IMG/VR virus record: IMGVR_UViG_3300043395_001834
Span: 1 to 41,897 of that record
Strand: one strand, 5' to 3'
Length of the DNA stretch: 41,897 nt
Source of the DNA: a virus
Every line of letters starts with the position of its first letter. The first letter of the stretch is position 1. Shown here in pieces: positions 13,574 to 38,376 of this stretch. The position numbers and the translations under genes were made by a program. The notes beneath the pieces were generated by a model. That model was not told where the DNA came from and did no database searches. It worked only from the letters and a program-made list of their open reading frames with translations.

Positions 13574-13587
13574 TTGACAGTGCTCAA
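13574..13587 (+). promoter_or_regulatory. boundary motif copy (TTGACAGTGCTCAA)
   Basis: Matches the recurrent 14-mer at 12 of 14 positions, in the direction of the downstream 44-aa gene, whose ATG begins 2 bases later. There is no -10 box at the proper distance, so this is not an ordinary sigma70 promoter. Confidence 0.55.
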
Positions 13588-13589
13588 GC

Positions 13590-13724
13590 ATGGCCGTCCG
13601 CTCCAAGACCGGCACGGGGTCAGTCCCTCGTAAGGAACCCGTCCACCACAAGAGCACGCAAGGAAGTGGCCGCGGCAGTCGCGTCAAGCCACGCCGCAAG
13701 GCCTATCGCGGCCAGGGGCGTTAG
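13590..13724 (+). CDS. small basic conserved phage protein, 44 aa
   Basis: The 44-aa, strongly basic product starts MAVRSKTGTGSVPRKEPVHH and ends RRKAYRGQGR. Short proteins with this 'S-x-P-R-K-E-P-V-H-H-K...Y-R-G-Q-G-R' pattern are conserved in many T7-like and other tailed phages, which is why I accept so small a gene. The function is unknown; nucleic-acid binding or a virion role is possible given the charge. Its TAG overlaps the stop of the convergent minus-strand 53-aa gene by two bases. No Shine-Dalgarno sequence is visible. Confidence 0.7.
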   Translation: MAVRSKTGTGSVPRKEPVHHKSTQGSGRGSRVKPRRKAYRGQGR

Positions 13725-13882
13725 GTCACCTTCCAAGGCAGCGTCCCGTATTTCCGTGCTAACCCGGTGTAGCAGCAGTGCATCGGGTGGCACTCATGCT
13801 GTCTTCCGTCCAGTCTGTACAGCTTTTCCAGCCACTCCAGGCGGCGCTCATCTTCAACGCGCCACTTCGGGTTGTAGGTCAT
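13721..13882 (-). CDS. conserved small protein downstream of terminase, 53 aa
   Basis: An ATG at 13882 opens 53 codons to a TAA at 13721-13723. The product begins MTYNPKWRVEDERRLEWLEK and contains HPMHCCYTGLARKYG, with two adjacent cysteines. Proteins of this shape sit beside the large terminase in T7-like cyanophages. It is the last gene of the terminase operon, separated from terL by 25 bases that hold an exact boundary motif. Function unknown. Confidence 0.65.
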   Translation of the reverse strand: MTYNPKWRVEDERRLEWLEKLYRLDGRQHECHPMHCCYTGLARKYGTLPWKVT

Positions 13883-13890
13883 CACGACTG

Positions 13891-13904
13891 TTGAACGCTG
13901 TCAA
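13891..13904 (-). promoter_or_regulatory. boundary motif copy, exact TTGACAGCGTTCAA on minus strand
   Basis: One of two perfect copies of the 14-mer. It lies in the gap between the end of terL and the following minus-strand gene and points along transcription. Confidence 0.6.
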
Positions 13905-13907
13905 ACG

Positions 13908-15626
13908 CTAGATCCAGCTGGTGCCTTGGCCAGCGTCAGCCACACGCGCCTGCTCCAAGCTCATGCCCATGGCCATGCGGTCTGGTGTCATGACGACGTG
14001 GCCATTCCAATCAGCGAGCATGGCCTCCAGCATTTCGACGCTGCGTGCTTCACGCCGCACCAGTTGATCCTGCGCAGCTTGCTGCTGGAACCACTGGATG
14101 CACATGGCCCAGGCATCCAGGCGGTCATCGTGCAGCAGGCTGCCGCGATCTGCTGTAAGCCGCGTCATTTGGTAGAAGAGGCTGTAGGAGCTGTCCTTGT
14201 CTTCAACAGCAGCCTTCAGTAGTTCTGCATCAGCCTCAACAACACGCCGATCCACCACCATCCGGTGTGTCTGCATCACCGGGGCGAGGGTGTCGATGAT
14301 CCGCAGCTCCTTCCGCTGGTTGGAGCGGATCGGCTCCACCCGGCACTGCGCCCCGGCTTTCACCAGGTAGGGCTTGAGCAGCTGGGCGTAGACCTCCAGA
14401 CCGCCGAAGTTCGTCTCGACCAGGATCTCGTTGACTCCATGCTGCTTGGCCAACGAGGCGATCTTCTCCCACAAGCTCTCGCCAACGCCCCCCAGGCGTC
14501 CACCGGACTCCATCAGGAAGTAGTTGCCAGCCCATGCCTTGACGATTGCCCAGGCGAACTCGTCACTGCCTCCACCCGAGGGATCGAGGGCCATGACCGT
14601 GGGGACTTCCCCCACAGGCACTGTGCCTTCAATTTGCGATGGGCGGTAGAAGCGCGGGTCATGGGACATGCCCACGCAGGGCAGATCGTCCAACGCCAGG
14701 TGCTTGCCCTTCTCATGGGTCACCACCTCCGGTAGGTGCCCATCAACCGTCATCACCATCAGGTCGCCACACCGCAGCGGGTAGCGCTCAATGTCACTGA
14801 GGGTGGCGTCCAGCAGGAACTGCAGCTTCCACTGCATGGGCGACATGGATAGCTCGCGCTGCAGTAGCTCGTCCTCGGAGAAACGAGTGTCTGTAGGCCG
14901 GCCATTGGCTACGCCAACACGCCGCTCAATCAATGGCGCCAATGCTCCGCGGTAAGGCGTCGGGTCAACAGGGACCCGTGCTGGCCACATCCGCATGTCG
15001 TAGTGCAGGTCTCGCTGCAGGGCGAAGTAGATCGAGTCCGTGCTGCTGTGCGGCGTACCCAGGTAGACGATCTCTGGCCCATCGCCTGGCTTGAGGATGG
15101 CCTCCAACTCGTTGAGGCTGTTGCGTAGCTTCTCCCGTTGCACCTGCGTCAGACAGGTCTGCGGTGTTTCGCAGTCATCAACCAGGATCGTGCTGGCACG
15201 AGAGCCCGTGATCTGACCCGTGATTCCCGCAGCGCGGACACTCGGGCTCTGCTCGATGTTCAAGCAGGTCCCAACGTCGAAATTGATCCTGGAGTAGCGC
15301 CCGTCATGGCTGTCGGGCTGCATGTGCTTCAACCACGGCACTCGGCCGATGGTCTGCAACATCCAGGCCGTCATGGCTTCTGACCTGGACATGGAAGCAC
15401 TGATGATCAAGCACTTCTCATTTGGATCCTGATACAGCTTCCACAGCAAGTACATGGCACTCAACGTGCTCTTGCCACATCCACGGAACGCTGCAATCAC
15501 ACGTCTCTTTGGCCCATGCTGCAAATAGTCCAGAATCTGCAGCTGTACTGGCGTTGGCGTTTCCGCCATTCCCAACTCACGCATCAACATCGTCGTGAAC
15601 TGGGGCAGGGGTATGGCCTGCGTCAC
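13908..15626 (-). CDS. terL: terminase large subunit (gp19-like)
   Basis: A 572-aa DNA packaging motor. The N-terminal ATPase has Walker A FRGCGKST (residues ~47-54) and Walker B STILVDDCE (~146-154). The C-terminal nuclease has an acidic metal site in MALDPSGGGSDEF (Asp349) and a later DDRLDAWAM segment. It drives ATP-dependent packaging into the prohead through the portal and cuts the concatemer. The start is GTG at 15626, overlapping the preceding TGA, with a GGGAGG-like site upstream. Length matches the T7 gp19 family (about 580 aa). It is on the strand opposite to portal and small terminase. Confidence 0.93.
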   Translation of the reverse strand: MTQAIPLPQFTTMLMRELGMAETPTPVQLQILDYLQHGPKRRVIAAFRGCGKSTLSAMYLLWKLYQDPNEKCLIISASMSRSEAMTAWMLQTIGRVPWLKHMQPDSHDGRYSRINFDVGTCLNIEQSPSVRAAGITGQITGSRASTILVDDCETPQTCLTQVQREKLRNSLNELEAILKPGDGPEIVYLGTPHSSTDSIYFALQRDLHYDMRMWPARVPVDPTPYRGALAPLIERRVGVANGRPTDTRFSEDELLQRELSMSPMQWKLQFLLDATLSDIERYPLRCGDLMVMTVDGHLPEVVTHEKGKHLALDDLPCVGMSHDPRFYRPSQIEGTVPVGEVPTVMALDPSGGGSDEFAWAIVKAWAGNYFLMESGGRLGGVGESLWEKIASLAKQHGVNEILVETNFGGLEVYAQLLKPYLVKAGAQCRVEPIRSNQRKELRIIDTLAPVMQTHRMVVDRRVVEADAELLKAAVEDKDSSYSLFYQMTRLTADRGSLLHDDRLDAWAMCIQWFQQQAAQDQLVRREARSVEMLEAMLADWNGHVVMTPDRMAMGMSLEQARVADAGQGTSWI

Positions 15627-15769
15627 TTCTTCTTCCGCCTCCCTTTCTTCTTCTGTTGAACGCTGTCAACAGGCTGACACAACCTTTCCTCCCTGATCAC
15701 CGCCACTAGCTCCTGGTACCCAGGCGCATCAGGAACCCCTCCCTTCAACAAGATCTCCGTCCAGTTCAC
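15623..15769 (-). CDS. small Lys-rich protein upstream of terL, 48 aa
   Basis: GTG at 15769 overlaps the preceding gene's stop (GTGA), and its own TGA overlaps the terL GTG. The 48-aa product starts MNWTEILLKGGVPDAPGYQE and ends in a Lys/Arg-rich tail. Tight double coupling strongly suggests a translated gene. The exact boundary motif at 15656-15669 lies inside it and encodes Val-Asp-Ser-Val-Gln. Function unknown. Confidence 0.6.
   Translation of the reverse strand: MNWTEILLKGGVPDAPGYQELVAVIREERLCQPVDSVQQKKKGRRKKK
15656..15669 (-). promoter_or_regulatory. boundary motif copy, exact TTGACAGCGTTCAA on minus strand
   Basis: The second perfect copy, 30 bases upstream of the terL start and inside the 3' half of the small upstream gene. 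It points along terL transcription. There is no -10 box at 17 bases. Confidence 0.6.
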
Positions 15770-16071: not shown

Positions 16072-16104
16072 TGCTCATCACGCTAATCACGTCCCCCAAC
16101 ACTA

Positions 16105-16118
16105 TCAAACCCTGTCAA
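16105..16118 (-). promoter_or_regulatory. boundary motif copy, leftward (TTGACAGGGTTTGA)
   Basis: Eleven of 14 matches, 34 bases before the first gene of the leftward arm and pointing toward it. Confidence 0.4.
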
Positions 16119-16370: not shown

Positions 16371-16404
16371 TGCGTCACCGAACACCAGGGCGCACGCAAC
16401 CAGC

Positions 16405-16516: not shown

Positions 16517-16540
16517 ACCCAAGCCCGACCCGGGGCATGA

Positions 16541-16995: not shown

Positions 16996-17009
16996 TTGAC
17001 AGCAGGCAA
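16996..17009 (+). promoter_or_regulatory. boundary motif copy / possible early rightward promoter
   Basis: TTGACAGCAGGCAA matches the motif at 11 of 14 positions. TTGACA is also a consensus -35 box; 17 bases later is TCTCAT (17019-17024), a 4/6 match to -10. It is the best-placed candidate promoter for the early cassette that starts at 17075. Confidence 0.45.
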
Positions 17010-17028
17010 GGTGTGTGATCTCATTGGT

Positions 17029-17065
17029 GCATGAGGTGTCGTTGCCTCATGCGTGAACCTTGCAA
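17029..17065 (+). promoter_or_regulatory. leader hairpin and first CCTTGCAA box
   Basis: GCATGAGG (17029-17036) pairs perfectly with CCTCATGC (17045-17052), immediately followed by GTGAACCTTGCAA (17053-17065). The box ends 9 bases before the ATG at 17075. This is the first member of the box series that precedes the small early genes. Confidence 0.5.
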
Positions 17066-17074
17066 CCACAGCCA

Positions 17075-17293
17075 ATGACCGCCACCTACACCGCCACCAC
17101 GCTTAACGGCCAGACCGTGAAGCGCAGCAGCAAGACCCGCACCTACACCCATTGCGTCGTTAACGGCAGCGAGGCTGTCACCTGGTGCGGCAGCCTGCAG
17201 CTGGCTCAAAAACAGCTGGCGAAGTATCAGCGCACTCCTGCCGCAACCGTGTGTGGCGTGCAATTCGCCATTGCGGAAGCTGTTGAGATCTGA
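17075..17293 (+). CDS. small early protein, 72 aa
   Basis: The 72-aa product begins MTATYTATTLNGQTVKRSSK and continues TRTYTHCVV, then a helix LQLAQKQLAKYQRT. The threonine/tyrosine-rich beta pattern followed by a helix resembles a short protein I associate with picocyanobacteria and their phages; the role is unknown. I chose ATG 17075 over an in-frame TTG at 17060 because the latter lies inside the CCTTGCAA box. First gene of the rightward arm. Confidence 0.55.
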   Translation: MTATYTATTLNGQTVKRSSKTRTYTHCVVNGSEAVTWCGSLQLAQKQLAKYQRTPAATVCGVQFAIAEAVEI

Positions 17294-17302
17294 TCCCTGA
17301 CG

Positions 17303-17365
17303 CTCCTACTGAGGCCAGCCGGCCTCTCTAGGGGCCTCATTGGCTCCCTGTTGTGAACCTTGCAT
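17303..17365 (+). promoter_or_regulatory. structured leader element, copy 1, plus box
   Basis: CTCCTA (17303-17308) pairs with TAGGGG (17329-17334), enclosing GAGGCC (17311-17316)/GGCCTC (17321-17326). The 3' strand of the outer stem can instead pair as GGGGCC with a downstream GGCTCC (about 17342-17347), so the two stems exclude each other. GTGAACCTTGCA (17353-17364) follows and ends 9 bases before the ATG at 17374. Confidence 0.6.
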
Positions 17366-17373
17366 TTGATCTC

Positions 17374-18030
17374 ATGGCCATCGTTTCAGTTGATCAGCGC
17401 TGGTGGGACTGCCCCACCCTTGACACCGCTCAACACCTGGAGGCGACTCTGGGAACGCCACTTGAACTGCCCGAGCACCTGGAGGCAGGCGGATGGGCGA
17501 CTGAGCAAGAGGACGCGCTTTGCCGCTGGTTTGCTCGCCTGACCCACCAGCAGTATGAGCACGTACTGAGAGACAACACCTACAACTCGGAGAATGACCT
17601 CTCAGAGAACTTTGTGTTCTCTGTGTTCGCTCCTGTTGATCGCAGCGACTGGCTCTACTGCGACGACGTGTTCATCGTTGTTGAAACGCACCTTGGTGGC
17701 GATGTGCGCGGCAACTATGGGCCGTTTCAGGTCTTCAGGGTTGACAGCCCGGCAGAGTCTGGGTTCCTGGATTGGACTGTGGGCTGGTGGGCTGAGCCGA
17801 TCAACCCAGACTCTGTGGATCACCTGGCAAAGCTTGAGGACCGCGAGCTTCAACGGGCAAACGATGAGATGGGCCAGGGTTGGAGCTCGCATCCCACCAG
17901 CCACATCCGGGAGCTTCTGTGGCCCAACACTGAGCCCACCTGGAGTGAGCGGCTTGGTTGCTACGTGGCCAGGCTTCGGGACGTGGACTTTGCCGTTCGC
18001 CTGCAACCTGCTGAGCCTTTCTACGGGTGA
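17374..18030 (+). CDS. hypothetical early protein, 218 aa
   Basis: An acidic, tryptophan-rich soluble product of 218 aa with no membrane segments. It includes WWDCPTLDTAQHLEATLG near the start, FVFSVFAPVDRSDWLYCDD in the middle and EPTWSERLGCYVARLRD near the end. I do not recognise a family. I chose ATG 17374 rather than GTG 17353 because GTG 17353 begins the conserved box and the box-to-start spacing then agrees with its neighbours. It is the largest gene of the early cassette and is flanked by structured leader copies on both sides. Confidence 0.6.
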   Translation: MAIVSVDQRWWDCPTLDTAQHLEATLGTPLELPEHLEAGGWATEQEDALCRWFARLTHQQYEHVLRDNTYNSENDLSENFVFSVFAPVDRSDWLYCDDVFIVVETHLGGDVRGNYGPFQVFRVDSPAESGFLDWTVGWWAEPINPDSVDHLAKLEDRELQRANDEMGQGWSSHPTSHIRELLWPNTEPTWSERLGCYVARLRDVDFAVRLQPAEPFYG

Positions 18031-18085
18031 GTGCTGCCTTCCTGTTGCCTGCGCTCAACAGCTGAGCGTAGGCAGCCTTCTGAAG

Positions 18086-18151
18086 CTCCTCCGGAGGCCC
18101 TGGCGGCCTCCCTAGGGGCCTCTCCCGGCTCCTGACGTGAACACCTTGCAA
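18086..18151 (+). promoter_or_regulatory. structured leader element, copy 2, plus box
   Basis: GGAGGCC (18093-18099) pairs with GGCCTCC (18105-18111), inside an outer stem CTCCT (18086-18090) with AGGGG (18114-18118). The alternative GGGGCC/GGCTCC stem is present downstream. ACACCTTGCAA ends at 18151, 9 bases before a GTG at 18161. Confidence 0.6.
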
Positions 18152-18160
18152 TCCCTGGCC

Positions 18161-18337
18161 GTGGCCTACGTCTCACGCTTTGAACTCTCCGGACCGCAGG
18201 CAGCAGCGCTGCTAGCCGCGCTGGATCAACTCACCGGAACGCAGCTTTTCAGCCTGCTGCCCGCAACGCAGCAGGAGCTGAGGTCAGCTCGCCAGCGGTT
18301 GCGCAGCGAGCTGACGCGATCTCTTTATTGCCGCTGA
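18161..18337 (+). CDS. small early protein, 58 aa
   Basis: A helical 58-aa product (GTG at 18161; an in-frame GTG at 18137 would add eight residues encoded by the box). It contains ELSGPQAAALLAALDQLTG and ends with an Arg-rich helix (ELRSARQRLRSELTRSLYCR). Alternating hydrophobic and charged residues suggest a helix-turn or coiled-coil fold. The start was chosen by the constant box-to-start spacing. Function unknown. Confidence 0.45.
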   Translation: MAYVSRFELSGPQAAALLAALDQLTGTQLFSLLPATQQELRSARQRLRSELTRSLYCR

Positions 18338-18348
18338 TCAACCACGTC

Positions 18349-18361
18349 GCACACCTTGCAA
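18349..18361 (+). promoter_or_regulatory. CACCTTGCAA box
   Basis: GCACACCTTGCAA ends 8 bases before ATG 18370. The preceding 15 bases (CCGCTGATCAACCAC) recur before the next gene, where the box is CATCCTGCAA (18657-18666), ending 10 bases before ATG 18677. Confidence 0.5.
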
Positions 18362-18369
18362 TTCCTTCA

Positions 18370-18642
18370 ATGAACACCGCAACCACTGACGCCAGCATCA
18401 CAGCCCGTCACCTGCTGGCCGAATCAACCCGCCGCTGTGATTACCAGCCCTATCAGGCCTACGTGCTAGCCCGCCTGGCCGAAAAGGGAGATGCCGGGTT
18501 TTCGGGCATGTTTTCCCGTGTTGGTGACCTGCTGCAGGCTGCGCAAGAGCTGCAGCGCGAGGGCCTCATTGGCACCATCACCTGCCACGAGTCGCGGATC
18601 ACAGGTCATGCACTTTTCACCGCTACCGCATCAATCCGCTGA
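18370..18642 (+). CDS. small early protein, 90 aa
   Basis: A 90-aa product: TARHLLAESTRRCDYQPYQ, then YVLARLAEKGDAGF, then a helix VGDLLQAAQELQREG, then ITCHESRITGHALFTAT. The helix-rich body ending in a beta hairpin has the look of a small winged-helix DNA-binding fold, but I cannot assign a family. The start was set by the box spacing. It is closely followed by another box-led gene. Confidence 0.55.
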   Translation: MNTATTDASITARHLLAESTRRCDYQPYQAYVLARLAEKGDAGFSGMFSRVGDLLQAAQELQREGLIGTITCHESRITGHALFTATASIR

Positions 18643-18676
18643 TCAACCACGCCGAACATCCTGCAACTGCCGAATC

Positions 18677-18937
18677 ATGCCGAAACTCACCGCTATTCCA
18701 GCCGCAACGCCAGTGCAACTCTGGCCAGCCGAAACCGCTCCCAGCGCTCAGCTTATGGCTGACATACGGGCCGGGATCCGCACGCTTGATTCCTTAGGCG
18801 CAACGGATCACGCCGACTACTGGGCGCAGGAGTTGCACGACGTGGCCGGCTACCCAATCGAGCGGCGCTGGACCCCTGGCGCTTTGCGGTTGATCGAGCG
18901 GGACGTGATGCAGGCCGAGATTGAAGCGCTTGCCTGA
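18677..18937 (+). CDS. small early protein, 86 aa
   Basis: The 86-aa product starts MPKLTAIPAATPVQLWPAET and continues with DIRAGIRTLDSLGATDHADY, YPIERRWTPGALRLIERDVM and an acidic end. Soluble, helical; no family recognised. Its box is a variant (CCTGCAA). It ends two bases before the third structured leader copy. Confidence 0.55.
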   Translation: MPKLTAIPAATPVQLWPAETAPSAQLMADIRAGIRTLDSLGATDHADYWAQELHDVAGYPIERRWTPGALRLIERDVMQAEIEALA

Positions 18938-18939
18938 CG

Positions 18940-19003
18940 CTCCTACGGAGGCCCTTCGGGGCTTCCCTAGGAGCCTCATTGGGCTCCCTGTTGCACCTTG
19001 CAA
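18940..19003 (+). promoter_or_regulatory. structured leader element, copy 3, plus box
   Basis: The best-formed copy. CTCCTA (18940-18945) pairs exactly with TAGGAG (18968-18973). Inside, GGAGGCCC (18947-18954) pairs with GGGCTTCC (18959-18966) around a TTCG tetraloop. GGAGCC (18970-18975) can instead pair with GGCTCC (18982-18987), which breaks the outer stem. GCACCTTGCAA ends at 19003, 8 bases before ATG 19012. There is no T tract, so it is not a simple terminator. Confidence 0.65.
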
Positions 19004-19011
19004 TCCCGAAC

Positions 19012-19170
19012 ATGCACACCAGAGCAAATCCGCGGCTGACCGTCGTGCTGCCGCCTGTTGTATTTGATCGCGTCATGCGCCTATCTACTCAACAGGGCCG
19101 AAGCATGAGTAACCTAGTTGCACACTTAGTAGAGAACGCCTTAGAGCGTCATAAGCCAGACACACAATGA
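19012..19170 (+). CDS. ribbon-helix-helix (CopG/Arc-type) regulator, 52 aa
   Basis: A 52-aa product with the classic layout: a short beta strand PRLTVVLPP (residues 7-15), helix one VFDRVMRLSTQQG (17-29), turn RSMS, and helix two NLVAHLVENALERH (34-47). Dimers of this fold bind DNA through the paired N-terminal strands. It is led by the third structured element, which suggests regulated expression, and lies just upstream of two small exported proteins. A role in control of the early cassette is inferred. Confidence 0.7.
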   Translation: MHTRANPRLTVVLPPVVFDRVMRLSTQQGRSMSNLVAHLVENALERHKPDTQ

Positions 19171-19412
19171 AGCAGCACTTTTGCACCGTGGCGGCCGCAC
19201 TGGCCGCCTTTCTTCAGGCCTCGGTCTGGGCTTATCCGCCAACTAGCGGATACGGCCAACCTGTGACGCCTTATGGGCAGCCATGGGGCCAATCCCAGCA
19301 GCAGCAGATCAACAGCCTTCAGCAGCAGATCTACAGCATTCAGGATCAACGGATGAAGAACTGCGTGAACAGCAAATCCACCTACTGCGGCTGGGATAAG
19401 GGGGGTTGGTGA
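19167..19412 (+). CDS. small exported protein, Gln-rich, 81 aa
   Basis: The start overlaps the RHH stop (ATGA). Residues 1-22 form a signal peptide: basic MKQH, hydrophobic VAAALAAFLQASV, cleavage near WAY. The mature part is rich in G, P, Y and Q, with a glutamine-rich helix (QQQQINSLQQQIYSIQDQR) and two cysteines near the C-terminus (residues ~66 and 74) that could form a disulfide in the periplasm. The function is unknown; a periplasmic or envelope-acting early protein is plausible. Confidence 0.6.
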   Translation: MKQHFCTVAAALAAFLQASVWAYPPTSGYGQPVTPYGQPWGQSQQQQINSLQQQIYSIQDQRMKNCVNSKSTYCGWDKGGW

Positions 19413-19582
19413 TGGACACTGAAACCCTCGTGGCACACCATGTTGAGGCCTTAATTGGCCTCGGCTGGAGGTGGGAAGGCCGCGGCCTCGTGCCGTCTTT
19501 TGATGCCAAGAACTTGACTGCGTTCGATAGTCAAAAGCTGGCCAGTGAAACTGTTAATTTTCCTCTGGGGGATGAAAAGTGA
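19412..19582 (+). CDS. small hypothetical protein, 56 aa
   Basis: ATG 19412 shares a base with the preceding stop (TGATG); the TGA at 19580-19582 overlaps the next GTG. The 56-aa product contains HHVEALIGLGWRWEGRGLVP, a possible short helix-turn-strand fold. The tight coupling on both sides supports translation. No family recognised. Confidence 0.55.
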   Translation: MDTETLVAHHVEALIGLGWRWEGRGLVPSFDAKNLTAFDSQKLASETVNFPLGDEK

Positions 19583-19788
19583 AGGCTCCGCACTTCCTTG
19601 GTTTAGTCATTGGCTTAACTGTTTCTGCACTTTCTGTAGCTTCCGGTGATTCACAGTTCTTTACCGCGGAACACGCCGAAATCTGGCGTGAGCATCTGGT
19701 TGCCCGTGGACTTCTACCTGAGCGTCTCCCGGAGCCGCAAACGTTTGCTAGAGGTCCCCACCATGGCTTTTCACAATGGGGCTACTAG
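19579..19788 (+). CDS. small exported protein, 69 aa
   Basis: GTG 19579 overlaps the previous stop (GTGA). Residues ~5-22 (HFLGLVIGLTVSALSVAS) form a signal peptide or N-terminal membrane anchor; the rest is short and hydrophilic with FTAEHAEIWREHLVARGLLP. It could act in the periplasm or membrane. Local composition is AT-richer than the surroundings. No family recognised. Confidence 0.5.
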   Translation: MKAPHFLGLVIGLTVSALSVASGDSQFFTAEHAEIWREHLVARGLLPERLPEPQTFARGPHHGFSQWGY

Positions 19789-19884
19789 AGCAGTGCGATT
19801 TGAGTGCTGCATTCTGCTGCACATGTGCCTTATTGTGGACTTTATTCCCGTCAGACTTAATGCTTTTTCAAGGCGTAAGTGACG

Positions 19885-19898
19885 TTGAATGCAGTCAA
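19885..19898 (-). promoter_or_regulatory. boundary motif copy upstream of marR-like gene
   Basis: On the minus strand TTGACTGCATTCAA, 12 of 14 matches, 57 bases before the MarR-like ATG and oriented against its transcription. The surrounding gap (19789-19955) also holds TTGACTTAGGTTGACATT, a direct repeat of TTGAC, and a CACCTTGCA box touching the start codon. Confidence 0.5.
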
Positions 19899-19955
19899 GC
19901 AATGCTGCCAATGCTCAACGGTTGACTTAGGTTGACATTGCGAGAGCACCTTGCA

Positions 19956-20306
19956 ATGTCAAACCTATCCAAGCTCCACGCGGCAATGCGTTTTTGCCGA
20001 CGTGAGCATGCCCAGTTGCGGGCCAGTCAGCTTGAGCTGTTGCTGGCCATTGCCCTGAAGCCGGGTCAAACCCAGTCCGAGCTTGCTGCGGACTGCAGCC
20101 TGACTCTTTCCGCTGTCTCCCGAGCAGTGGATGTTCTGGGTTCTAAGGGGCGTAGCGATCAGATCAGCAACGCCACCATGCACTGGATTGAAACCCGCGA
20201 CAACCCGCATGACGAAAGGATCAAGCAGGTTTATTTGACTAAGAAAGGCACCGATTTTCTGCACCTTCTGGAGATGATTAGCTATGGCGGTACGGTTTCG
20301 GAGTGA
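19956..20306 (+). CDS. MarR-family winged-helix regulator, 116 aa
   Basis: The 116-aa product has a helix-turn-helix region QSELAADCSLTLSAVSRAVDVL (about residues 40-61), followed by the winged segment characteristic of MarR proteins, RDNPHDERIKQVYLTKKG (about 81-98), with the D-x-R-x5-LT-x-x-G pattern. MarR dimers bind near-palindromic operators of roughly 14-20 bp. It overlaps the integrase start by 23 bases, so the two are co-expressed. I chose ATG 19956; an in-frame TTG at 19932 is possible. A lysis-lysogeny or early-gene repressor role is inferred from context. Confidence 0.8.
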   Translation: MSNLSKLHAAMRFCRREHAQLRASQLELLLAIALKPGQTQSELAADCSLTLSAVSRAVDVLGSKGRSDQISNATMHWIETRDNPHDERIKQVYLTKKGTDFLHLLEMISYGGTVSE

Positions 20307-21312
20307 CCGCAATAAGTGGTTCGCTCAAATCACAACTGAAACAGGCCGAATCTCGAAGTCATTCGAGACCGAACAGGAGGCCGCGCAATGGGAGGCCGCG
20401 GCCAAGGCCGCCATGGCTCAACAGCTGAAGGCCCAGGAGGTCAAGGAGGTGGCGCCTGCCACCGGCTCTGTTGGCCAGCTAGTTCGCTTGTGCGAGCGGT
20501 TGGACTGGGCAGGGAAGGATCCCTCGCAGCTTCAGAACGCGCAGCGCCTGGCCCGGTTGCTGGGCTCTGACACCCACATCAGCGAGCTCACCATGGCCCG
20601 CCTCGATGATCTGGTGGCCGAACTTCGGATCGCGGGGCCAGGGGGTGAGCCCCTGAGCAACACCACCATCAGGAAGTACCTGAACGCGGCCAGCGTCATG
20701 TTGAAGCGAGCCTGCCGGCTGGGCTTCATCAATCAGATGCCCCTCATGCCCGAGGGGCGGACCTTGCCGCTGCCGGAGCCACGCGATCTGGTGATTCCAG
20801 ACGAGTGGTTCGGGGCCATGCTCGACGCGATGGAAAAACGGGAGCACCGCATGGCTGTGGCACTCACCCTGTTCCTGCGTCGCGTTGGTTGCCGTGTGGG
20901 CGAGGCGCTGGACCTGACCTGGGACAGGGTGGACCTTGGGGCACGAACATTACAGTTTGTGAAAACCAAGGGAGCCATGCCTCGTCGCATTCCGATGGAT
21001 GACGAGGTGCTTTCCATCGTCAAGGCGATGAAGGCCAGGGGTGGCAGCAAGGTCTTCCGGATCTCGTACTGGTGGTACCTGTGCAACTACAACGATGCCA
21101 AGCATGAGGCTTGCGATGCCCTCGGCTTAGGTGACACTGTGCGACGCGAATGGGTCATCCACACGCTGCGCCACACCAGAATCACCGAGCTGGCACGTCT
21201 TGGCTGGCAGGCCCCTGCGATCCAGCAGTGGGCAGGCCACAAGAACCTGGCCGTCACCCAGCGGTACATCCACGCCGCCGGTATCAACCTTCAGGAGCTC
21301 CTCCAATGTTGA
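20284..21312 (+). CDS. int: tyrosine recombinase (integrase)
   Basis: A 342-aa tyrosine recombinase. It has an N-terminal arm-binding-like region (1-60), a SAM-like core-binding helix bundle (~62-155), and a catalytic domain with Arg204 (GCRVGEAL), Lys near 227-229, His293-x-x-Arg296 (HTLRHT), His319 (WAGHK) and the nucleophile Tyr328 (RYIHA). The full catalytic set is present, so it should be active. The tRNA-like attP lies directly downstream. Its presence next to the RNA polymerase gene recalls P-SSP7-type cyanopodoviruses. The stop codon overlaps a boundary motif copy. Confidence 0.93.
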   Translation: MAVRFRSDRNKWFAQITTETGRISKSFETEQEAAQWEAAAKAAMAQQLKAQEVKEVAPATGSVGQLVRLCERLDWAGKDPSQLQNAQRLARLLGSDTHISELTMARLDDLVAELRIAGPGGEPLSNTTIRKYLNAASVMLKRACRLGFINQMPLMPEGRTLPLPEPRDLVIPDEWFGAMLDAMEKREHRMAVALTLFLRRVGCRVGEALDLTWDRVDLGARTLQFVKTKGAMPRRIPMDDEVLSIVKAMKARGGSKVFRISYWWYLCNYNDAKHEACDALGLGDTVRREWVIHTLRHTRITELARLGWQAPAIQQWAGHKNLAVTQRYIHAAGINLQELLQC

Positions 21313-21322
21313 ACGCTGTCTA
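21309..21322 (-). promoter_or_regulatory. boundary motif copy at the int stop codon
   Basis: The minus strand reads TAGACAGCGTTCAA, 12 of 14 matches, oriented against int and RNAP transcription, at the left edge of the attP region. Confidence 0.5.
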
Positions 21323-21339: not shown

Positions 21340-21449
21340 GCAACCAGAGCAACCAAAATGCAACCAAACCGCCCAAAACCCTTGTGGGGGTCTAGCAATC
21401 TGGTGAATGCAGCGGACTCATAATCCGAGCAAAGATTGCCAGTAGGCAA
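21340..21449 (+). other. candidate attP with 5'-half tRNA(CAT) and arm repeats
   Basis: Three GCAACC repeats at 21340, 21349 and 21360 look like integrase arm-type sites. A segment from about 21386 to 21427 resembles the 5' half of a tRNA: a D-arm-like part with GGTGAATGC, then a perfect anticodon arm CGGA(CTCATAA)TCCG at 21413-21427 with anticodon CAT. Sequence after the anticodon arm lacks the GGTTCGA T-arm, so this is not a complete tRNA gene. An inverted repeat TTGCC/GGCAA (21436-21440/21445-21449) follows. This is what an attP core matching a host tRNA anticodon arm would look like. Confidence 0.65.
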
Positions 21450-21491
21450 GAAGCCAGCCCTCACAGGGGATCCCCACTGAGATCTCCGAGA

Positions 21492-23876
21492 ATGGCCGAT
21501 CAACAATCAAACGCTGTCAAGCAACCGCCGCAACCACAGCTTGAGCTCGAAGAATGGTGCAGATCCACTGGCGCAAGCCGCGTACTTCGTGACGGTTGGC
21601 AGAAGGGGGCCAGCGGAACAATCATCCAGCGTCTTGCCAATCTGTACCTGCAAAAGGTCCAGGAGATCTATGAGAAGTCGAAGCATTCTCCGGGTCGTCA
21701 GCGTCACATTTGGGCCCTGATGCACAGCTCTGAGGCCGTCAAACATGTGGCCTTGGAGAGCTTTGCCTACCTGCTCGGCAACCTCAACGATGAGCGGCCT
21801 TACAACCAGATCTGCACCGTCATCGGCAAGCGTGCTGAGTACGTCCTTTGGTTGACCCACCCCTCATGGGGGAAGGGCCTCCACCTGCAGGGCCTGCGGC
21901 TGGCCAGCAACAACGACCTGTCGATGGGGCTGATCCGCAAGCGGCTCCGTGATAAAGGCTTCCGCAAGGCCGCGGCCTACCGCGAGCTGTCCCATGTGGA
22001 GCGGGCTGCCCTGGGCGCCTTCTTTGTTGAGTGCGTGGCCGAGAGCACGCGGATGCTGGAGATCTACGTGACCACCCAGTTCCGCAAGACCGTGAAGATG
22101 GTCCGCTACAGCCAGCTGTACTGGGACTACCTCAAGCGTTGGCGGGAGGCCGCCGTCCTTTTCCGGCCCCTGTACATGCCGATGATCCAGCCGCCGCGGC
22201 CGTGGCCTGGCCATACCGGAGGTGGGTACCTGAGCATCGGCTCAACGGTGAGCACCGTGGCCTGGGAGCGGTGGCCTGAGGTCAGCAAGCGGATGCTGCC
22301 TTGCGTGCTCAACAGCATCAACCTGCTGCAGGACCAGGCCTACCAGCTGGACCATGCCCAGGTCGCTCTGACAGAAGCCTGTTGGAACCTCGGCCACGAG
22401 ATCGGTGCGTTGCCCAAGCGTGATCGCATCTCGGAGCCCGTTGATGCGGAGTTCAGGGAGCAGGGCCTAGGTCCTTCTGCCTACTGGAAGGCGGTATGGA
22501 AGTGGAAGTCGGACCAGCGGAAGGACAGCCAACGGTCCCGCTTCATCAATGCACTGATCGCATACCACCGGCTGGAGGAAGCGCCCGCGATCTGGTTCGT
22601 GTGGCACATGGACCACCGCGGCCGGCTCTACAGCCGTGGAGCACAGCTCAACATCCAAGGCCCTGACCACCTGCGCTGCATGACGCAGTTCCAGGAGCGC
22701 AGCCCAATCAAGGGGCACGAGAAGGCCTTTGCCTGGAGCCTGGGCGAGGCGGTTGGCACAGCCCCCCACCCTCAGGACCGGCTGAACTACCTGGAGCTCA
22801 TGTCGCCCGTACTGGCCAGGGTCGGCGGCGATCCGCTGGGCAACGTTGGCTATTGGGAGCAGGCGAAGGAGCCCTGGCGACTGATCCAGCTGTGCCGTGA
22901 CTGGTTCCACTACACGCAGGACCCCAGCTACTGCAGCGGGACGATCCACTGGTTGGACCAGACCTGCTCAGGCTGGGGTCATGTGGCCTGCCTGACAGGC
23001 GACGGGATCCTGGCTCAGTACACCAACGTGATCGGCAGCAAGCCGGCTGACCTGTACCTGGGCATCGGTCGCCTGGTTGAGACCAGGATCCGCTGGCAGT
23101 GCGAGCAAGAGCATCCAGAGAACAAGCTGAAGGCCTACCACTGGTGGCGTGAGCATCAGATCCCCAGGTCCCTGTGGAAGAAGACGCTGATGCCGGTGAT
23201 CTACGGCCGCAGCTACCTCAGCCTGGCCGAGGCCATCAAGATCTACCTGCGCGATGAGGTCGGGGACTTCCTGACCGACGAAGGGCTGCGCGTTCTGGAT
23301 CTGGCGTTAGTCCTGGCCACCACGGTCAATGCAGTGGTGGCGGAGGCGCTGCCACATGTGAAGGGACTGAGCCGCTGGCTCACTCACCTGAGCAACCTGC
23401 AAATAGATGCAGGCCTCAGACCGTATTGGTTCACGCCCAATGGCATGGCGATTGAGTCCTATCAGTCAGCCACCGAGCGGGACACCATCGAGTTGAACCT
23501 GGCAAAGCGAACGATCCGAGTGAACCTTTCGGACAACTCAGGTTGTAAGCCTGACAAGCGCAAGACCGCTCGGAAGCTTGTGCCTGACTACATCCACAGC
23601 ATGGATGCAGCGTTCCTGCAGCGCTTTGTATCGCACTGGGGGACGTACAAGCATCCGATCTCCACGATTCATGACTGCTTCGGCACCACCTTGGAGCATG
23701 TTGAAACGCTGCAGTCAGAGCTCAACGACCAGTGGCATCGGTTCTACTCGGTGGACTGGCTGACCAAGCATCAGGGAATGGTCGAATCCCTTGTGGGGCA
23801 AGAGGTCTTGGCGCCTCCGATCATCGGCACCCTGGACAGAAGCCGCATTGGTGAAAACAGCTACCTTTTCTGTTGA
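21492..23876 (+). CDS. T7-like single-subunit RNA polymerase
   Basis: A 794-aa DNA-directed RNA polymerase of the T7 family (T7 enzyme 883 aa). Key parts: WFVWHMDHRGRLYSRG (~368-383); motif A WLDQTCSGWGH with Asp489 (T7 D537); motif B KKTLMPVIYG with Lys563 and Tyr571 (T7 K631/Y639); motif C STIHDCFGT with Asp728 (T7 D812); and a conserved PDYIHSMDAAFLQ helix. It transcribes the phage middle and late genes from its own promoters. The N-terminus is shorter than in T7. The first codons contain a boundary motif copy (21507-21520). It is followed by a host-type promoter before SSB. Confidence 0.96.
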   Translation: MADQQSNAVKQPPQPQLELEEWCRSTGASRVLRDGWQKGASGTIIQRLANLYLQKVQEIYEKSKHSPGRQRHIWALMHSSEAVKHVALESFAYLLGNLNDERPYNQICTVIGKRAEYVLWLTHPSWGKGLHLQGLRLASNNDLSMGLIRKRLRDKGFRKAAAYRELSHVERAALGAFFVECVAESTRMLEIYVTTQFRKTVKMVRYSQLYWDYLKRWREAAVLFRPLYMPMIQPPRPWPGHTGGGYLSIGSTVSTVAWERWPEVSKRMLPCVLNSINLLQDQAYQLDHAQVALTEACWNLGHEIGALPKRDRISEPVDAEFREQGLGPSAYWKAVWKWKSDQRKDSQRSRFINALIAYHRLEEAPAIWFVWHMDHRGRLYSRGAQLNIQGPDHLRCMTQFQERSPIKGHEKAFAWSLGEAVGTAPHPQDRLNYLELMSPVLARVGGDPLGNVGYWEQAKEPWRLIQLCRDWFHYTQDPSYCSGTIHWLDQTCSGWGHVACLTGDGILAQYTNVIGSKPADLYLGIGRLVETRIRWQCEQEHPENKLKAYHWWREHQIPRSLWKKTLMPVIYGRSYLSLAEAIKIYLRDEVGDFLTDEGLRVLDLALVLATTVNAVVAEALPHVKGLSRWLTHLSNLQIDAGLRPYWFTPNGMAIESYQSATERDTIELNLAKRTIRVNLSDNSGCKPDKRKTARKLVPDYIHSMDAAFLQRFVSHWGTYKHPISTIHDCFGTTLEHVETLQSELNDQWHRFYSVDWLTKHQGMVESLVGQEVLAPPIIGTLDRSRIGENSYLFC
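21507..21520 (-). promoter_or_regulatory. boundary motif copy in the RNAP 5' end
   Basis: The minus strand reads TTGACAGCGTTTGA, 12 of 14 matches, 15 bases into the RNAP gene and opposite to its transcription. With the copy at 21309-21322 it brackets the attP segment. Confidence 0.45.
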
Positions 23877-23883: not shown

Positions 23884-23912
23884 TTGACAGCATTCAACAT
23901 TGCCTCTATCAT
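23884..23912 (+). promoter_or_regulatory. sigma70-type promoter overlapped by boundary motif
   Basis: TTGACA (23884-23889), a 17-base spacer and TATCAT (23907-23912) make a near-consensus host promoter in the gap after the RNAP gene. The 14-mer TTGACAGCATTCAA (23884-23897, 13 of 14) covers the -35 box, so a protein bound there would block or replace host polymerase. It should drive SSB and the replication genes; AGGAG precedes the SSB GTG. Confidence 0.7.
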
Positions 23913-23992
23913 CTAGCCCAGCGGGCATTGGTGGTGAGCTTCGGTCCACGCCATGTAAGACCCGCCCATCCACGTTTCATCAGGAGTAATTC

Positions 23993-25118: not shown

Positions 25119-26626
25119 ACGGCACTGCTAAGCGCCTGCTTGGCGGCCTGCCACGCAATGACAGCGTGACTGTCAAGACCAGCCTGCTGACAGGCAAGGT
25201 CTCTGGCCTTTCGTCCCGAAAGATCTCAGAGCGAACCTGTCGGATGTATGGCTACGACTCGGCTTCCTACCGAGGCCAGCCCGCACAGCTGGCCAACTAC
25301 CGAGACGAGAACGGCCTCACCGTTGCGCAGCACATCCGCTACGGGGAGAAGCAGTTTGCCTGGCTGGGCCGGGAGAAGGGCCTCAAGATCCAACTCTTCG
25401 GTCAGCACCTAGGCAGCGACGGAACGCTCGTCCTTACCGAGGGCGAGATCGACGCGATGACTGTGTACGAATGCCTCTACAAGCATCGCCACCAAAGCAA
25501 GTTTGTAGTTGCATCAATCCCTGATGGAGCAGCCTCGGCTAAAAAGTCCTGCACAGATCAGCTCACTTACATCCTGGGCTTCAAGCGCGTTGTCATCTTC
25601 ATGGACAACGACGAACCCGGCCGCAAGGCTGCTACTGATCTGGCTGCACTTATCGGCCCTACTGCTGCTATCGCAGGAGGCTTCCCTTACAAGGACGCCA
25701 ACGAAGCCTGGATGGGGGATGACTACAACGCCATCCTTGAAGCCATCAACAACGCAAGGCGCCATCGCCCGGAGGCGATTGTCCATGCGCCAGAACTGCT
25801 CAACAAGATCCTCAACCCCGAGCGCCGCTTCGGCCTGCCCTACCCCTGGGCGGGTTGGAATCGAATGACCGAAGGGATGAAAGCCGGGCAGCTGGTGATG
25901 ATCTCTGGCGGGACCGGCATCGGCAAGAGCCTGTTCACACGCAGCATTGCGCTGCACTTATGCAGGGATCACCAGGTCAAGGTCGCTTACATCGGCCTTG
26001 AAGAAAGCTGTGACACCAGCCTTGAGCGCATGTTGTCGGAGCAGATGGGCCTACCACTCCATCTCGACAAGCCTGAGGAGCGGAAGGCCAGGGATCCTGA
26101 GTCCATCAAGGAGGCGATGGATGCTTTTGCAGACAACCTCTTCTTGCTGGACAAGTTCGGCAGCGAAGACTTTGACTCTTTTGTTGCCACCGTTAAACAT
26201 TATGTCCTGGGAGAACAATGTCAAGTTGTTGTCCTTGATCACTTCTCGCTTCTGGCTGATGGTATTGCCCTTGGCACTGATCAGCGTCGGGCTATTGATC
26301 GCTGCATCAAGGATCTCAAGACGCTCTGCGTCGAGCTCAACTTCACCATGGTTGTCGTCTGCCACCTATCGAGATCGGGAGGCATTGGCCCGGCGCACGA
26401 AGAAGGCGGCGAGCCCACGCTTGCCGAACTACGAGGATCTCATTCCCTAGCTCAAATCCCAGATTTCGTTGTCATGTTGCAGCGGAACCCCAGGGCCGAG
26501 GACAAGGAGGAAGCCAACACCACAACGTGTTGGTTGAAGAAGAACCGGGTAAAGGGGGAGCTGGGCCCCATGTGCAAGCTCAAGTACCTGCCAACTTTCT
26601 GCCGGTTCCATGAAACGGACCTCTAG
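24968..26626 (+). CDS. DNA primase-helicase (T7 gp4-like)
   Basis: A 552-aa bifunctional protein. N-terminal zinc-binding motif with Cys11, Cys16, Cys32 and Cys35; TOPRIM primase domain with LVLTEGEIDAM (Glu158) and DNDEPGRK (213-220); RecA-like helicase domain with Walker A GGTGIGKS (314-321), then VVVLDHFSLL and VVVCHLSR. It unwinds the fork and primes lagging-strand synthesis. The full-length zinc form is clear from ATG 24968, even though this lies inside the endonuclease frame. No phage DNA polymerase follows it, so it must work with a host polymerase. Confidence 0.95.
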   Translation: MARGSTTHIPCPNEECGSSDAATEYPDGSIYCFSCQQRFTSDGQPWKPNVNGTAKRLLGGLPRNDSVTVKTSLLTGKVSGLSSRKISERTCRMYGYDSASYRGQPAQLANYRDENGLTVAQHIRYGEKQFAWLGREKGLKIQLFGQHLGSDGTLVLTEGEIDAMTVYECLYKHRHQSKFVVASIPDGAASAKKSCTDQLTYILGFKRVVIFMDNDEPGRKAATDLAALIGPTAAIAGGFPYKDANEAWMGDDYNAILEAINNARRHRPEAIVHAPELLNKILNPERRFGLPYPWAGWNRMTEGMKAGQLVMISGGTGIGKSLFTRSIALHLCRDHQVKVAYIGLEESCDTSLERMLSEQMGLPLHLDKPEERKARDPESIKEAMDAFADNLFLLDKFGSEDFDSFVATVKHYVLGEQCQVVVLDHFSLLADGIALGTDQRRAIDRCIKDLKTLCVELNFTMVVVCHLSRSGGIGPAHEEGGEPTLAELRGSHSLAQIPDFVVMLQRNPRAEDKEEANTTTCWLKKNRVKGELGPMCKLKYLPTFCRFHETDL

Positions 26627-31476: not shown

Positions 31477-31582
31477 AGAACCATCTTCCGTTGACCAAAG
31501 CTTGACAGTAGGCAAGGGGTCGCATACGCAGCCCCTGCCTGACGGCGGCCACATGATCATTCGGAATGGATTCAATGTCTGA
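31403..31582 (+). CDS. small protein overlapping portal 3' end, 59 aa
   Basis: GTG 31403 preceded by AAGGAG opens a 59-codon frame that overlaps the portal by 74 bases and the scaffold by 17. The basic N-terminus (MEQRRRRNPAEQQLADLIKD) is followed by GKGSHTQPLPDGGHMIIRNG. The good ribosome site and the non-random C-terminus support translation. Possibly a minor virion or assembly factor; function unknown. Confidence 0.55.
   Translation: MEQRRRRNPAEQQLADLIKDQSQPEEPSSVDQSLTVGKGSHTQPLPDGGHMIIRNGFNV
31502..31515 (+). promoter_or_regulatory. boundary motif copy upstream of scaffold gene
   Basis: TTGACAGTAGGCAA, 10 of 14 matches and close to the copy at 16996, in the direction of the scaffold and capsid genes, 51 bases before the scaffold ATG. 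There is no -10 box. Confidence 0.4.
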
Positions 31583-32276: not shown

Positions 32277-32287
32277 GGGCTATAAAT

Positions 32288-32321
32288 AGGAGCAGATCAA
32301 CCAACCAAGTGATCTGCTCCT
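32288..32321 (+). other. 12-bp perfect hairpin between scaffold and capsid genes
   Basis: AGGAGCAGATCA (32288-32299) pairs perfectly with TGATCTGCTCCT (32310-32321) around a 10-base loop. There is no T tract, so an RNase III-type processing or mRNA-stabilising hairpin for the abundant capsid message is more likely than termination. GGTTAATCAACC (32379-32390), a second small dyad, lies in the rest of the gap; GGAG precedes the capsid ATG. Confidence 0.7.
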
Positions 32322-32420
32322 GGGCCGGTGCGCCGATACCCCAGAGACGCGACGTTGGTGAAGGCAAGACGCCTCAGTGGTTAATCAACCGCACACCTTT
32401 CATCAACTTGGAGCCGCATC

Positions 32421-33458
32421 ATGGCTGCACCTAACGCAACACTGTCCCGTCCTGGTGCTATTAACAACACCACAGGCACGTGGGCTCAAGATAATGCCTT
32501 GTTCCTCAAGGTGTTCTCAGGAGAAGTTCTGACCAGTTTCGAGAGAAACTGCATCTTCGATGGCCTGGTGCAAACCCGCACCATCCAAAACGGGAAGAGC
32601 GCACAGTTTCCCGTGACGGGCCGTTTCACCAGTCGCTACATGACTCCCGGTGAAATGCTGACCGGTCAGGGCAACATGGCCCAGAACGAAGTGGTCATCA
32701 AGATCGACGACCTGCTAATTGCAGATGCCTCGATCTTCGACCTCGACGAGGCCAAGAATCACTACGACATTCGCTCGATCTACTCGGTCGAATTGGGCAG
32801 GGCCATGGCCCGGAGCTACGACAAGCGTCTGGCTCGCGTGCTGACCCTGGCTGCTCGCACCAGCACCAGCGACCTCACTGCCAACCTGCCTACCGGTCTG
32901 TCTCCTGACGATCCGTATCGCGTTGGCACTCGCATCGACATCAACAAGGCCACTCCTACCCCGGATGATCTTGTTGCTTCGGTGTTCGCTGCTGCTCAAG
33001 CTCTGGATCAAAAGGACATCCCTGCTGACGGCCGCGTGCTTGTGTGCAGCCCCGATGTTTATTACACACTGATCCAGTCTTCTCGGGCCGTGAACAGTGA
33101 CTTCAACCAGCCTGGCGCCAACGGTGGTTATGCCTCTGGTCAGATCTCTCGTCTGGCTGGCTTCACCATCCTGAGCAGCAACCACATCCAGCAAGGCAAC
33201 GTCACTGCACCCACCGGCGAGCAGGGCTACACCTTCGGCGGTGTGGACACCGTGCTGTCTTCTGTGAACATGAGCACCACCAAGATGCTCGCCTTCCAGA
33301 AGGGTGCTGTTGGTGTTGTCAAGCTGCGTGATCTGACCATGCAGATGACTGGCAATGACTACGCCGTGACTCACCAAGCCACGTTGATGGTGTCGAAGAT
33401 GGCATACGGTGCAGGTCCACTGCGCCCTGAAGCCGTCGTCGAAATCCACAACGGTTGA
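32421..33458 (+). CDS. major capsid protein, gp10A-like
   Basis: A 345-aa protein, essentially the length of T7 gp10A. It starts MAAPNATLSRPGAINNTTGT and includes VFSGEVLTSFERNCIFDGLV, KSAQFPVTGRFTSRYMTPGE and DDLLIADASIFDLDEAKNHY, all typical of T7-like capsid proteins (HK97 fold). It forms the icosahedral shell. It is preceded by a strong hairpin and followed by an intrinsic terminator. Confidence 0.96.
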   Translation: MAAPNATLSRPGAINNTTGTWAQDNALFLKVFSGEVLTSFERNCIFDGLVQTRTIQNGKSAQFPVTGRFTSRYMTPGEMLTGQGNMAQNEVVIKIDDLLIADASIFDLDEAKNHYDIRSIYSVELGRAMARSYDKRLARVLTLAARTSTSDLTANLPTGLSPDDPYRVGTRIDINKATPTPDDLVASVFAAAQALDQKDIPADGRVLVCSPDVYYTLIQSSRAVNSDFNQPGANGGYASGQISRLAGFTILSSNHIQQGNVTAPTGEQGYTFGGVDTVLSSVNMSTTKMLAFQKGAVGVVKLRDLTMQMTGNDYAVTHQATLMVSKMAYGAGPLRPEAVVEIHNG

Positions 33459-33482
33459 GTTCGGTCAAGTTATTGGCAGGAT

Positions 33483-33506
33483 GGGGGCAGCGATGCCCCC
33501 TTTTTT
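33483..33506 (+). terminator. intrinsic terminator after capsid gene
   Basis: GGGGGCA (33483-33489) and TGCCCCC (33494-33500) form a 7-bp GC-rich stem with a GCGA loop, followed by TTTTTT (33501-33506). It corresponds in position to the T7 T-phi terminator. The next gene's ATG begins only one base after the T tract. Confidence 0.92.
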
Positions 33507-37212: not shown

Positions 37213-38360
37213 TGCCATTCGGTATTGACGACGCCATCCTCTTTGGAGTCCTTAGCGGAGCCGGCAGCTCCATCTTTGGCAGCATGAGTCAGGGGGCAGC
37301 GGCTGACGCCCAGAACAAAGAGCAAGAGCGTATCGCCAAGGCGCAGTACAAGAGAGCGGTCCAGGAATACCGCATCCAGAACAAGCGGGACATTACCCAG
37401 TGGTACTGGGATCGCGCACGGGTTGAGCAGCTGCGCTTCAACGAGAAACAGACCGCGCTCGACCAGGCCACCTACGGGGCCAAGCTGATTGCCTCAGCGA
37501 CCGAGAACCTGGCCATCAACAGTCAGGCTCTCTACGACAAGTTCGTGACTGAGGAGCGGTTGCGGGCCACGCAGGTTGGCCTGGACTACCAGTACACCAC
37601 CAACAAGCTGGCGGCCGACAGCACCGAGGCTGTTCGCCAGTACATGCAGAACATCAACCAGACAGCACTGCAAAGCAATGCCACGGTTGCGAAGCTGAAC
37701 ACCGATACCCAGGAGTTGTTGGCCAGCCTTGCGCTGGAAGAACAGCGCGACTACCTGGGGTGGCAGCTCAACGTGTTGAGTGCTGCGGCCAAGGATGCAG
37801 AGGCCAAGGCTTCCGCTAGCGCTCGCCAGGGCGGCAGCAACACGTCCCGGAAGCTCGCAGTGCAGGCTGCCCAACAGCTCGGTCGCACCTGGTCCGAGAT
37901 GGATCAGAGGGCAAGGAGCAGAGACGTGAAGCTGGGCCTGCTCAACAGCGCCATGAAGAACGACGTGTCCCGTCAGCTGAGCCAGTACGCCCTGGCGATG
38001 CAGGATGACACCGAGAAGATCAAGTACACCAACCAGCGGTACATCAGCGACTACGGCCTGGCCAAGAGCCAAATGGAGTCACTGACCATCCCAAGCTTCC
38101 AGCTGGCTGAGAAGCAGTACGGACGTGAGCTGAAGAGCTTGCAGCTGCAGACGCGGCAAGCATTTGATGAGGCAACGACCAAGTACCGGGAGCAGACGTT
38201 CTTCGATCCGCTCAAGCCCATCCCTGGTCTGCGTCCCAAGTACATCGCACCGACCGCGATTGCTGGCCCAAGCGTCGGCTCCGTGATTGGCAATGCAATC
38301 CTCAGCGGGGTTCAAGGAGCTGCAACGTTCAGTGATCCCAAAACGTGGTTTGGCGGTTAA
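37212..38360 (+). CDS. internal virion protein, gp14-like
   Basis: A 382-aa protein after gp12-like, as T7 gp14. It starts with a glycine/hydrophobic segment (ILFGVLSGAGSSIFGSMSQG) that could insert in a membrane, then a very long alpha-helical, Q/A/K-rich coiled-coil region (residues ~35-310). It likely forms part of the ejected channel in the outer membrane. Its partners, the gp15- and gp16-like proteins, are encoded on the other arm. Confidence 0.82.
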   Translation: MPFGIDDAILFGVLSGAGSSIFGSMSQGAAADAQNKEQERIAKAQYKRAVQEYRIQNKRDITQWYWDRARVEQLRFNEKQTALDQATYGAKLIASATENLAINSQALYDKFVTEERLRATQVGLDYQYTTNKLAADSTEAVRQYMQNINQTALQSNATVAKLNTDTQELLASLALEEQRDYLGWQLNVLSAAAKDAEAKASASARQGGSNTSRKLAVQAAQQLGRTWSEMDQRARSRDVKLGLLNSAMKNDVSRQLSQYALAMQDDTEKIKYTNQRYISDYGLAKSQMESLTIPSFQLAEKQYGRELKSLQLQTRQAFDEATTKYREQTFFDPLKPIPGLRPKYIAPTAIAGPSVGSVIGNAILSGVQGAATFSDPKTWFGG

Positions 38361-38362
38361 GC

Positions 38363-38376
38363 TTGACAGCGTACAA
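38363..38376 (+). promoter_or_regulatory. boundary motif copy upstream of cyAbrB gene
   Basis: TTGACAGCGTACAA, 13 of 14 matches, in the short gap between the gp14-like stop and the cyAbrB ATG, ending 11 bases before that ATG and pointing along transcription. The base positions 17 after TTGACA read TTATGG, not a -10. Confidence 0.6.

Follow-up and report, generated by a model that had tools for sequence, protein, structure and literature searches.

Recurrent 14-bp inverted repeats in a T7-like phage family as probable operators of a phage-encoded MarR-family repressor

Genome organization and relatives

The window, by which we mean the whole stretch of DNA analyzed, spans a 41,897-base IMG/VR record from a T7-like phage (Autographiviridae). 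Genes for internal virion proteins, tail fibre, and terminase form a leftward block (1493-15626), and the rightward genes follow in the order small genes, marR (19956), integrase (20284), RNA polymerase (RNAP) (21492), ssb, endonuclease, primase/helicase, exonuclease, portal, scaffold, capsid, tail tube, AbrB-like gene, and endolysin. The product of marR (19956..20306, plus strand), a winged-helix protein of 116 amino acids, is our proposed repressor. The two genes after it encode a tyrosine integrase (20284..21312, plus strand) and a T7-type single-subunit RNAP (21492..23876, plus strand), and the marR-int-RNAP order was constant in the relatives' loci that we compared. Among named relatives, Krakvirus S39C11 (AP013549.1) is nearest; its RNAP is 43% identical, and its genes, those for MarR, integrase, RNAP, and AbrB among them, follow the same order.

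An attP-like tRNA fragment lies upstream of the RNAP gene (21393..21430, plus strand), and its positions 21393-21427 are identical to Synechococcus phage S-H9-1; this 35-bp match would fit a cyanobacterial host. Across relatives (window 21393-21460; L010-L013 and L036), the fragment varies between Leu-TAA-like and CAT-anticodon-like forms, and a long stem can form between the RNAP leader and a segment upstream of attP. The AbrB-like regulator (38388-38789) belongs to the cyanobacterial type PF14250 and sits beside the endolysin gene in a position conserved in complete relatives. We noticed no T7-type DNA polymerase gene between primase/helicase and exonuclease in the window or in AP013549.1, where part of the small open reading frames was scanned. 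In three relatives (L074, L107, and L110), two MarR paralogues precede the integrase. Two scans of genomes for prophages returned a single contig (L074), binned as planctomycete, whose phage genes follow the order of the family, and no integrated copy was therefore seen. A scan for distant MarR homologues lacking an RNAP of the window's type brought back the same family alone.

A 14-bp inverted repeat at gene boundaries

The recurrent motif is a 14-bp inverted repeat, TTGMC-N4-GKCAA. All eight strong copies named in the original prediction were recovered with 0 to 2 mismatches (13574, 13891, 15656, 19885, 21309, 21507, 23884, and 38363), and its weaker copies carry three (16105 and 16996) or four (31502 and 13327). 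Its chance estimate of about 0.3 agrees with the 0.27 that we computed for up to 2 mismatches over the 14 positions, against which the window holds 12 copies. With up to 3 mismatches we counted 18 copies; dinucleotide shuffles gave 3.5, and none of 100 reached 18. The motif is real, and it is stronger than first stated: copies at 6565 (minus), 12123 (minus), 17420 (plus), and 19514 (plus) had been overlooked, as had three further palindromic relatives at 21436 (TTGCCAGTAGGCAA), 33455 (TTGAGTTCGGTCAA), and 40743 (TTGCCAACAGGCAA). In an unbiased search of all near-palindromic 14-mers, the motif was the top family in the window (12 versus 0.18 expected), and in an unbiased search of gene-boundary 18-mers it ranked top in the window and in two relatives (G005 and G006). 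A reversed pattern run as a control on ten relatives gave 29 matches versus 127 for the motif.

The information is confined to the 14 columns, with flanks at background, when 17 window sites are aligned by transcription. We scanned gene boundaries for TTGM-Nx-KCAA with x from 0 to 15 and obtained 89 matches for x = 6 and 3 to 20 for the other spacers. Since a spacer of 6 is the only enriched one among the 16 lengths, the motif is a fixed-spacing dyad. Coding sequence plausibly accounts for some internal matches, such as TTGCCACCGTTAAA at 26184 in the primase/helicase gene (prihel), yet an origin of the motif by chance or as a by-product of codon usage is hardly credible: for the set as a whole, it was refuted by the shuffles, the reversed-pattern control, and the spacer scan.

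The claim that nearly all copies lie in gaps or at gene ends held as an enrichment: 12 of the 18 position weight matrix (PWM) sites fall in intergenic sequence or no more than 40 nt from a gene end, regions that make up 18% of the genome (P = 8e-6). Exceptions include 17420, 19514, and a site inside ivpB (6565..6578, minus strand) whose position is kept in relatives. On the left side of the window, a candidate operator lies between the divergent ivpC leader and orf12127 start (12123..12136, minus strand as match). Further sites lie 2 nt before orf13590 (13574..13587, plus strand), between the terL stop and orf13721 (13891..13904, minus strand), and at the orf15623 3' end, 30 nt before terL (15656..15669, minus strand); a weaker one is found upstream of the leftward operon (16105..16118, minus strand). 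In the lysogeny module, one site is upstream of marR (19885..19898, TTGAATGCAGTCAA), and three bracket the attachment site and the RNAP start. The first of these three overlaps the int stop codon (21309..21322, TTGAACGCTGTCTA), the second precedes the RNAP start by 56 nt (21436..21449), and the third is within the RNAP gene, 15 nt past its start (21507..21520, TCAAACGCTGTCAA). The remaining sites mostly overlap the starts or stops of other genes. They include sites in the portal/scaffold gap (31502..31515, plus strand, TTGACAGTAGGCAA), over the major capsid stop codon (33455..33468), 11 nt before the AbrB-like gene (38363..38376, plus strand), and at the orf40736 3' end (40743..40756).

Conservation in related phages

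The same dyad occurs at fixed gene boundaries in more than 50 related sequences, with about 15 to 20 copies at orthologous boundaries, found in relatives whose RNAP identity is as low as about 40%. The motif was thus neither as frequent in shuffled sequence nor absent from relatives' boundaries, outcomes that the original prediction had named as speaking against it. We compared boundaries in ten near-complete or partial relatives, among which some genomes lack the site at some boundaries. On the left side and in the lysogeny module, the shared boundaries are ivpC/orf12127, terL upstream, marR upstream, the int stop, the RNAP leader, and RNAP codon 6. On the right side they are RNAP/ssb, portal/scaffold, the capsid stop, the AbrB start, and the orf40736 end, and the site inside ivpB is shared as well. 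Relative to the RNAP start, sites recur at about -172 (or -219), -55, +15, and +2393 in most of 54 loci, and most relatives have an equivalent of the 19885 site upstream of their own marR gene.

The arm sequences drift by lineage. Krakvirus S39C11 has homologous sites, which its record does not annotate; the Krakvirus group carries TTGCC/GGCAA arms at several sites within one genome, and the L030-L032 group has the variant TTAAACGGTGGCAA. At RNAP codon 6, Ser is replaced by Leu in relatives with the dyad kept, and this swap points to a constraint on the DNA rather than on the protein. Two phages that share marR-int-RNAP, P-SSP7 and HTVC019P, gave no clear equivalent in an unbiased palindrome search. 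The L107-L109 group keeps MarR and has few sites by the same PWM, which counts against reading the motif as a MarR operator.

Overlap with promoters

The site in the RNAP/ssb gap (23884..23897, plus strand, TTGACAGCATTCAA) begins with TTGACA, which is followed after a 17-nt spacer by a TATCAT -10 box (23907..23912, plus strand). Over the 20 kb scanned, this pair scored highest against sigma70 (11 of 12 positions), and it would form the promoter of the ssb/replication operon. TANNNT lies 16 to 18 nt from the arm of the 23884-type site in 34 of 39 distinct loci and reads TATAAT in L074. Judged from sequence, a host sigma70-type promoter conserved family-wide uses the left arm at 23884 as its -35 box. 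A second site (16996..17009, plus strand, TTGACAGCAGGCAA) may overlap a weak candidate early promoter with an extended -10 (TGATCTCAT, 17019-17024), and this arrangement is kept in four relatives (G001-G003 and G010). At 16 to 18 nt, 8 of the 9 other boundary sites have no credible -10, 16996 being borderline. The earlier remark that a -10 accompanies only one or two copies was therefore correct, with 23884 as the clear case and 16996 as the weak one.

The original prediction also named the promoter of the phage RNAP, short as in Syn5, as a candidate; such promoters would stand before each operon. This is a T7-like phage with its own RNAP, sites lie near many operon starts, and we found no other repeated promoter; a TATAA..GGAGCAG block upstream of the capsid gene mcp, met in that search, is single copy. 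The motif's core had been described as pointing along transcription, which is partly right. Outside the lysogeny module (11 genomes), 36 sites point along transcription, 19 against it, and 10 are symmetric. This moderate bias favors a promoter, is unexpected for a simple palindrome, and so counts against an operator. However, the orientation is mixed, and inside the module 4 sites point along and 18 against transcription, with conserved wrong-way copies at int and RNAP. Outside the module, both arms draw on one set of half-sites (TTGAC, TTGCC, and TTGAA), which makes the half-sites interchangeable in what are perfect or near-perfect dyads. There is no conserved +1, initiator, or flank, and 23884 shows host -35/-10 architecture instead. 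The specificity-loop region of RNAP differs between the window or L013 and L026, and the motif is identical.

Promoters of this type served as positive controls. A T7-type promoter can appear near-palindromic, as does TCACTCAAGGGTGA in Pasto, but its copies there all run one way and carry GGG; a real promoter thus looks different from the motif. The Syn5 RNAP promoter, ATTGGGCACCCGTAA (PMC3950665), is likewise short and from a cyanophage, and its resemblance to the motif is limited to the TTG/AA ends. The Syn5 genome has two exact copies on one strand, each followed by G, and no dyad network. Given the mixed orientation, interchangeable half-sites, and lack of an initiator, we regard the phage RNAP promoter as unlikely. 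It was rejected as the main reading on flank information, orientation, and the Pasto and Syn5 controls. The other suggestion of the original prediction, a repressor operator, is the one that the data support.

Candidate regulators

An inverted repeat with a single spacer and a shared set of arms suits a homodimer. The window MarR scores above the Pfam MarR_2 cutoff, PHROGs likewise place it in the MarR family, and 15 of 15 aligned family proteins match MarR_2. In its AlphaFold model (pLDDT 84), the window protein adopts the MarR topology, and Foldseek matched the model to MarR, MexR, and the MarR-operator complex 5h3r. We consider it probable that the 14-mers are operators of the phage's own homodimeric MarR-family repressor, encoded beside the integrase. 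Support for the operator reading comes from the dyad with one spacer, its sharp edges, interchangeable half-sites, and mixed orientation. The -35 overlap, the site ahead of marR, and the recurrence at equivalent boundaries in relatives support it as well. That MarR is the protein binding the dyads, and that its binding represses, we infer.

Alternatively, the dyads could be operators of another regulator, the AbrB-like protein or a CRP/FNR-type host factor. A site at the start of the AbrB-like gene (in several genomes 11 nt before it), a gene that complete relatives also keep, counts against MarR, and the 5-N4-5 geometry fits CRP/FNR; FNR boxes, TTGAT-N4-ATCAA, have the same geometry. However, lineage-by-lineage drift of the motif suits a phage-borne protein better than a host factor, and sites are concentrated around marR-int-RNAP. 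We give this alternative little probability. Binding sites for the integrase or an excision factor are more improbable still: three copies flank the attP-like fragment within 200 bp, but most lie far from it, at the same late-gene boundaries in relatives.

As every other complete relative has both genes, co-occurrence cannot separate MarR from RNAP. The exception is L014, in which int is present, marR was not detected, and, of the four lysogeny positions, only the 23884-type site is kept. As a marR knockout, L014 gives weak support, its missing sites lying largely inside deleted segments; this loss, in one lineage, is only suggestive of a link to MarR. The natural deletion (L014:2798-3850) has removed the attP region so that int nearly abuts RNAP, and its breakpoint resembles recombination between two copies of the candidate operator.

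Proposed repression and comparison with known systems

We propose that the half-sites TTGAC, TTGCC, and TTGAA are bound by a homodimeric winged-helix repressor, most likely the phage MarR. On 23884, MarR would cover the -35 box and so keep the host-type promoter that drives the replication operon closed. Its binding to 21309, 21436, and 21507 would stop transcription around attP from entering RNAP. The 19885 site could let MarR control its own gene, and the site at 16996 may allow it to mask an early promoter. Where late genes start or stop, the copies lack a -10 and would act as roadblocks to read-through, that is, as stoperators. In a lysogen, MarR would thus close the replication promoter and block read-through into RNAP. 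A broader proposal is that in temperate T7-like phages a MarR dimer silences the whole lytic program by covering host promoters and by symmetric stoperator roadblocks genome-wide, an immunity unrelated to that of actinophages; we put this forward tentatively, at slightly less than an even chance.

Operators of MarR-family proteins are likewise TTGA-type inverted repeats bound by a winged-helix dimer. Examples are the CouR box of Rhodococcus, cATTGA-N5-TCAATg, which overlaps a -35 TTGAcA (PMC4737184) exactly as at 23884, and the SCO3205 operator TTnAAnnnTCAA (PMC3737563). The TTGA arms are separated by 5 nt in these and by 6 nt here, and the phage has many copies genome-wide, most of them away from promoters. 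The sites of the cluster A mycobacteriophage L5 are asymmetric 13-mers in strict orientation, bound by monomeric gp71 (PMC9283540 and PMC6550527). They share with the phage sites their number, their dispersal at gene gaps and ends, the small fraction in true promoters, and a motif that drifts by lineage. The phage network, in contrast, is a mixed-orientation dyad with an unrelated candidate repressor (MarR_2). Because the sites lack the defining asymmetry and strict orientation and the candidate repressor is not of the gp71 type, we do not class the network as an L5 stoperator system.

LUZ100 and Pasto have the marR-int-RNAP order, and MarR was proposed to repress RNAP via sites flanking the RNAP promoter (PMC10134795, citing Boeckman 2022). 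The accessible part of that report proposes sites near RNAP only, describes no dispersed network, reports no binding site, and states that no stable lysogen was obtained. The idea that MarR controls RNAP in temperate T7-like phages thus predates this work; in the literature that we searched, we found no report of a genome-wide operator network, and the dispersed network seems new. MarR repression, if true, would explain how a T7-like virus could stay silent in its host and would bear on how temperate T7-like phages restrain a powerful polymerase. It is directly testable given a concrete sequence, a site list, and dozens of natural protein/operator variants, as is the use of roadblocks outside actinophages. 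The network would also predict mutual immunity, or its lack, among T7-like cyanophages of freshwater and marine origin.

RNA hairpins and other repeats

The transcript from the 23884 promoter would begin with an RNA hairpin in the ssb leader (GCNGGCATTG..P2..CATGTAAGNCCNGC; 23921..23965, plus strand), conserved across 24 distinct sequences and without a match in Rfam. In a MAFFT alignment of trimmed sequences, it shows 54 two-sided changes versus 15.5 when shuffled. Ninety-one percent of cells are paired (31 to 41% when slid), a figure that is favored because the structure was derived from the same sequences. The third stem pair covaries (C-G, U-A, and G-C) independently of that favoring. Most relatives keep the hairpin, and L093-L097 carry GGTGTTGGTTCAACCAACGG instead.

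A conserved leader of about 110 nt precedes the capsid gene (window 32280-32420), with a strong hairpin (GGAGCAGATCA..TGATCTGCTCC) and TATAA in front; the region may comprise the promoter and leader of that gene. Immediately past the capsid gene, GGGGGCAGCGATGCCCCCTTTTTT (window 33483-33506) is placed like T7 T-phi and is conserved in relatives. A second repeat, (G)CACCTTGCAAT, lies directly ahead of several small early genes and of marR (window 17040-19960).
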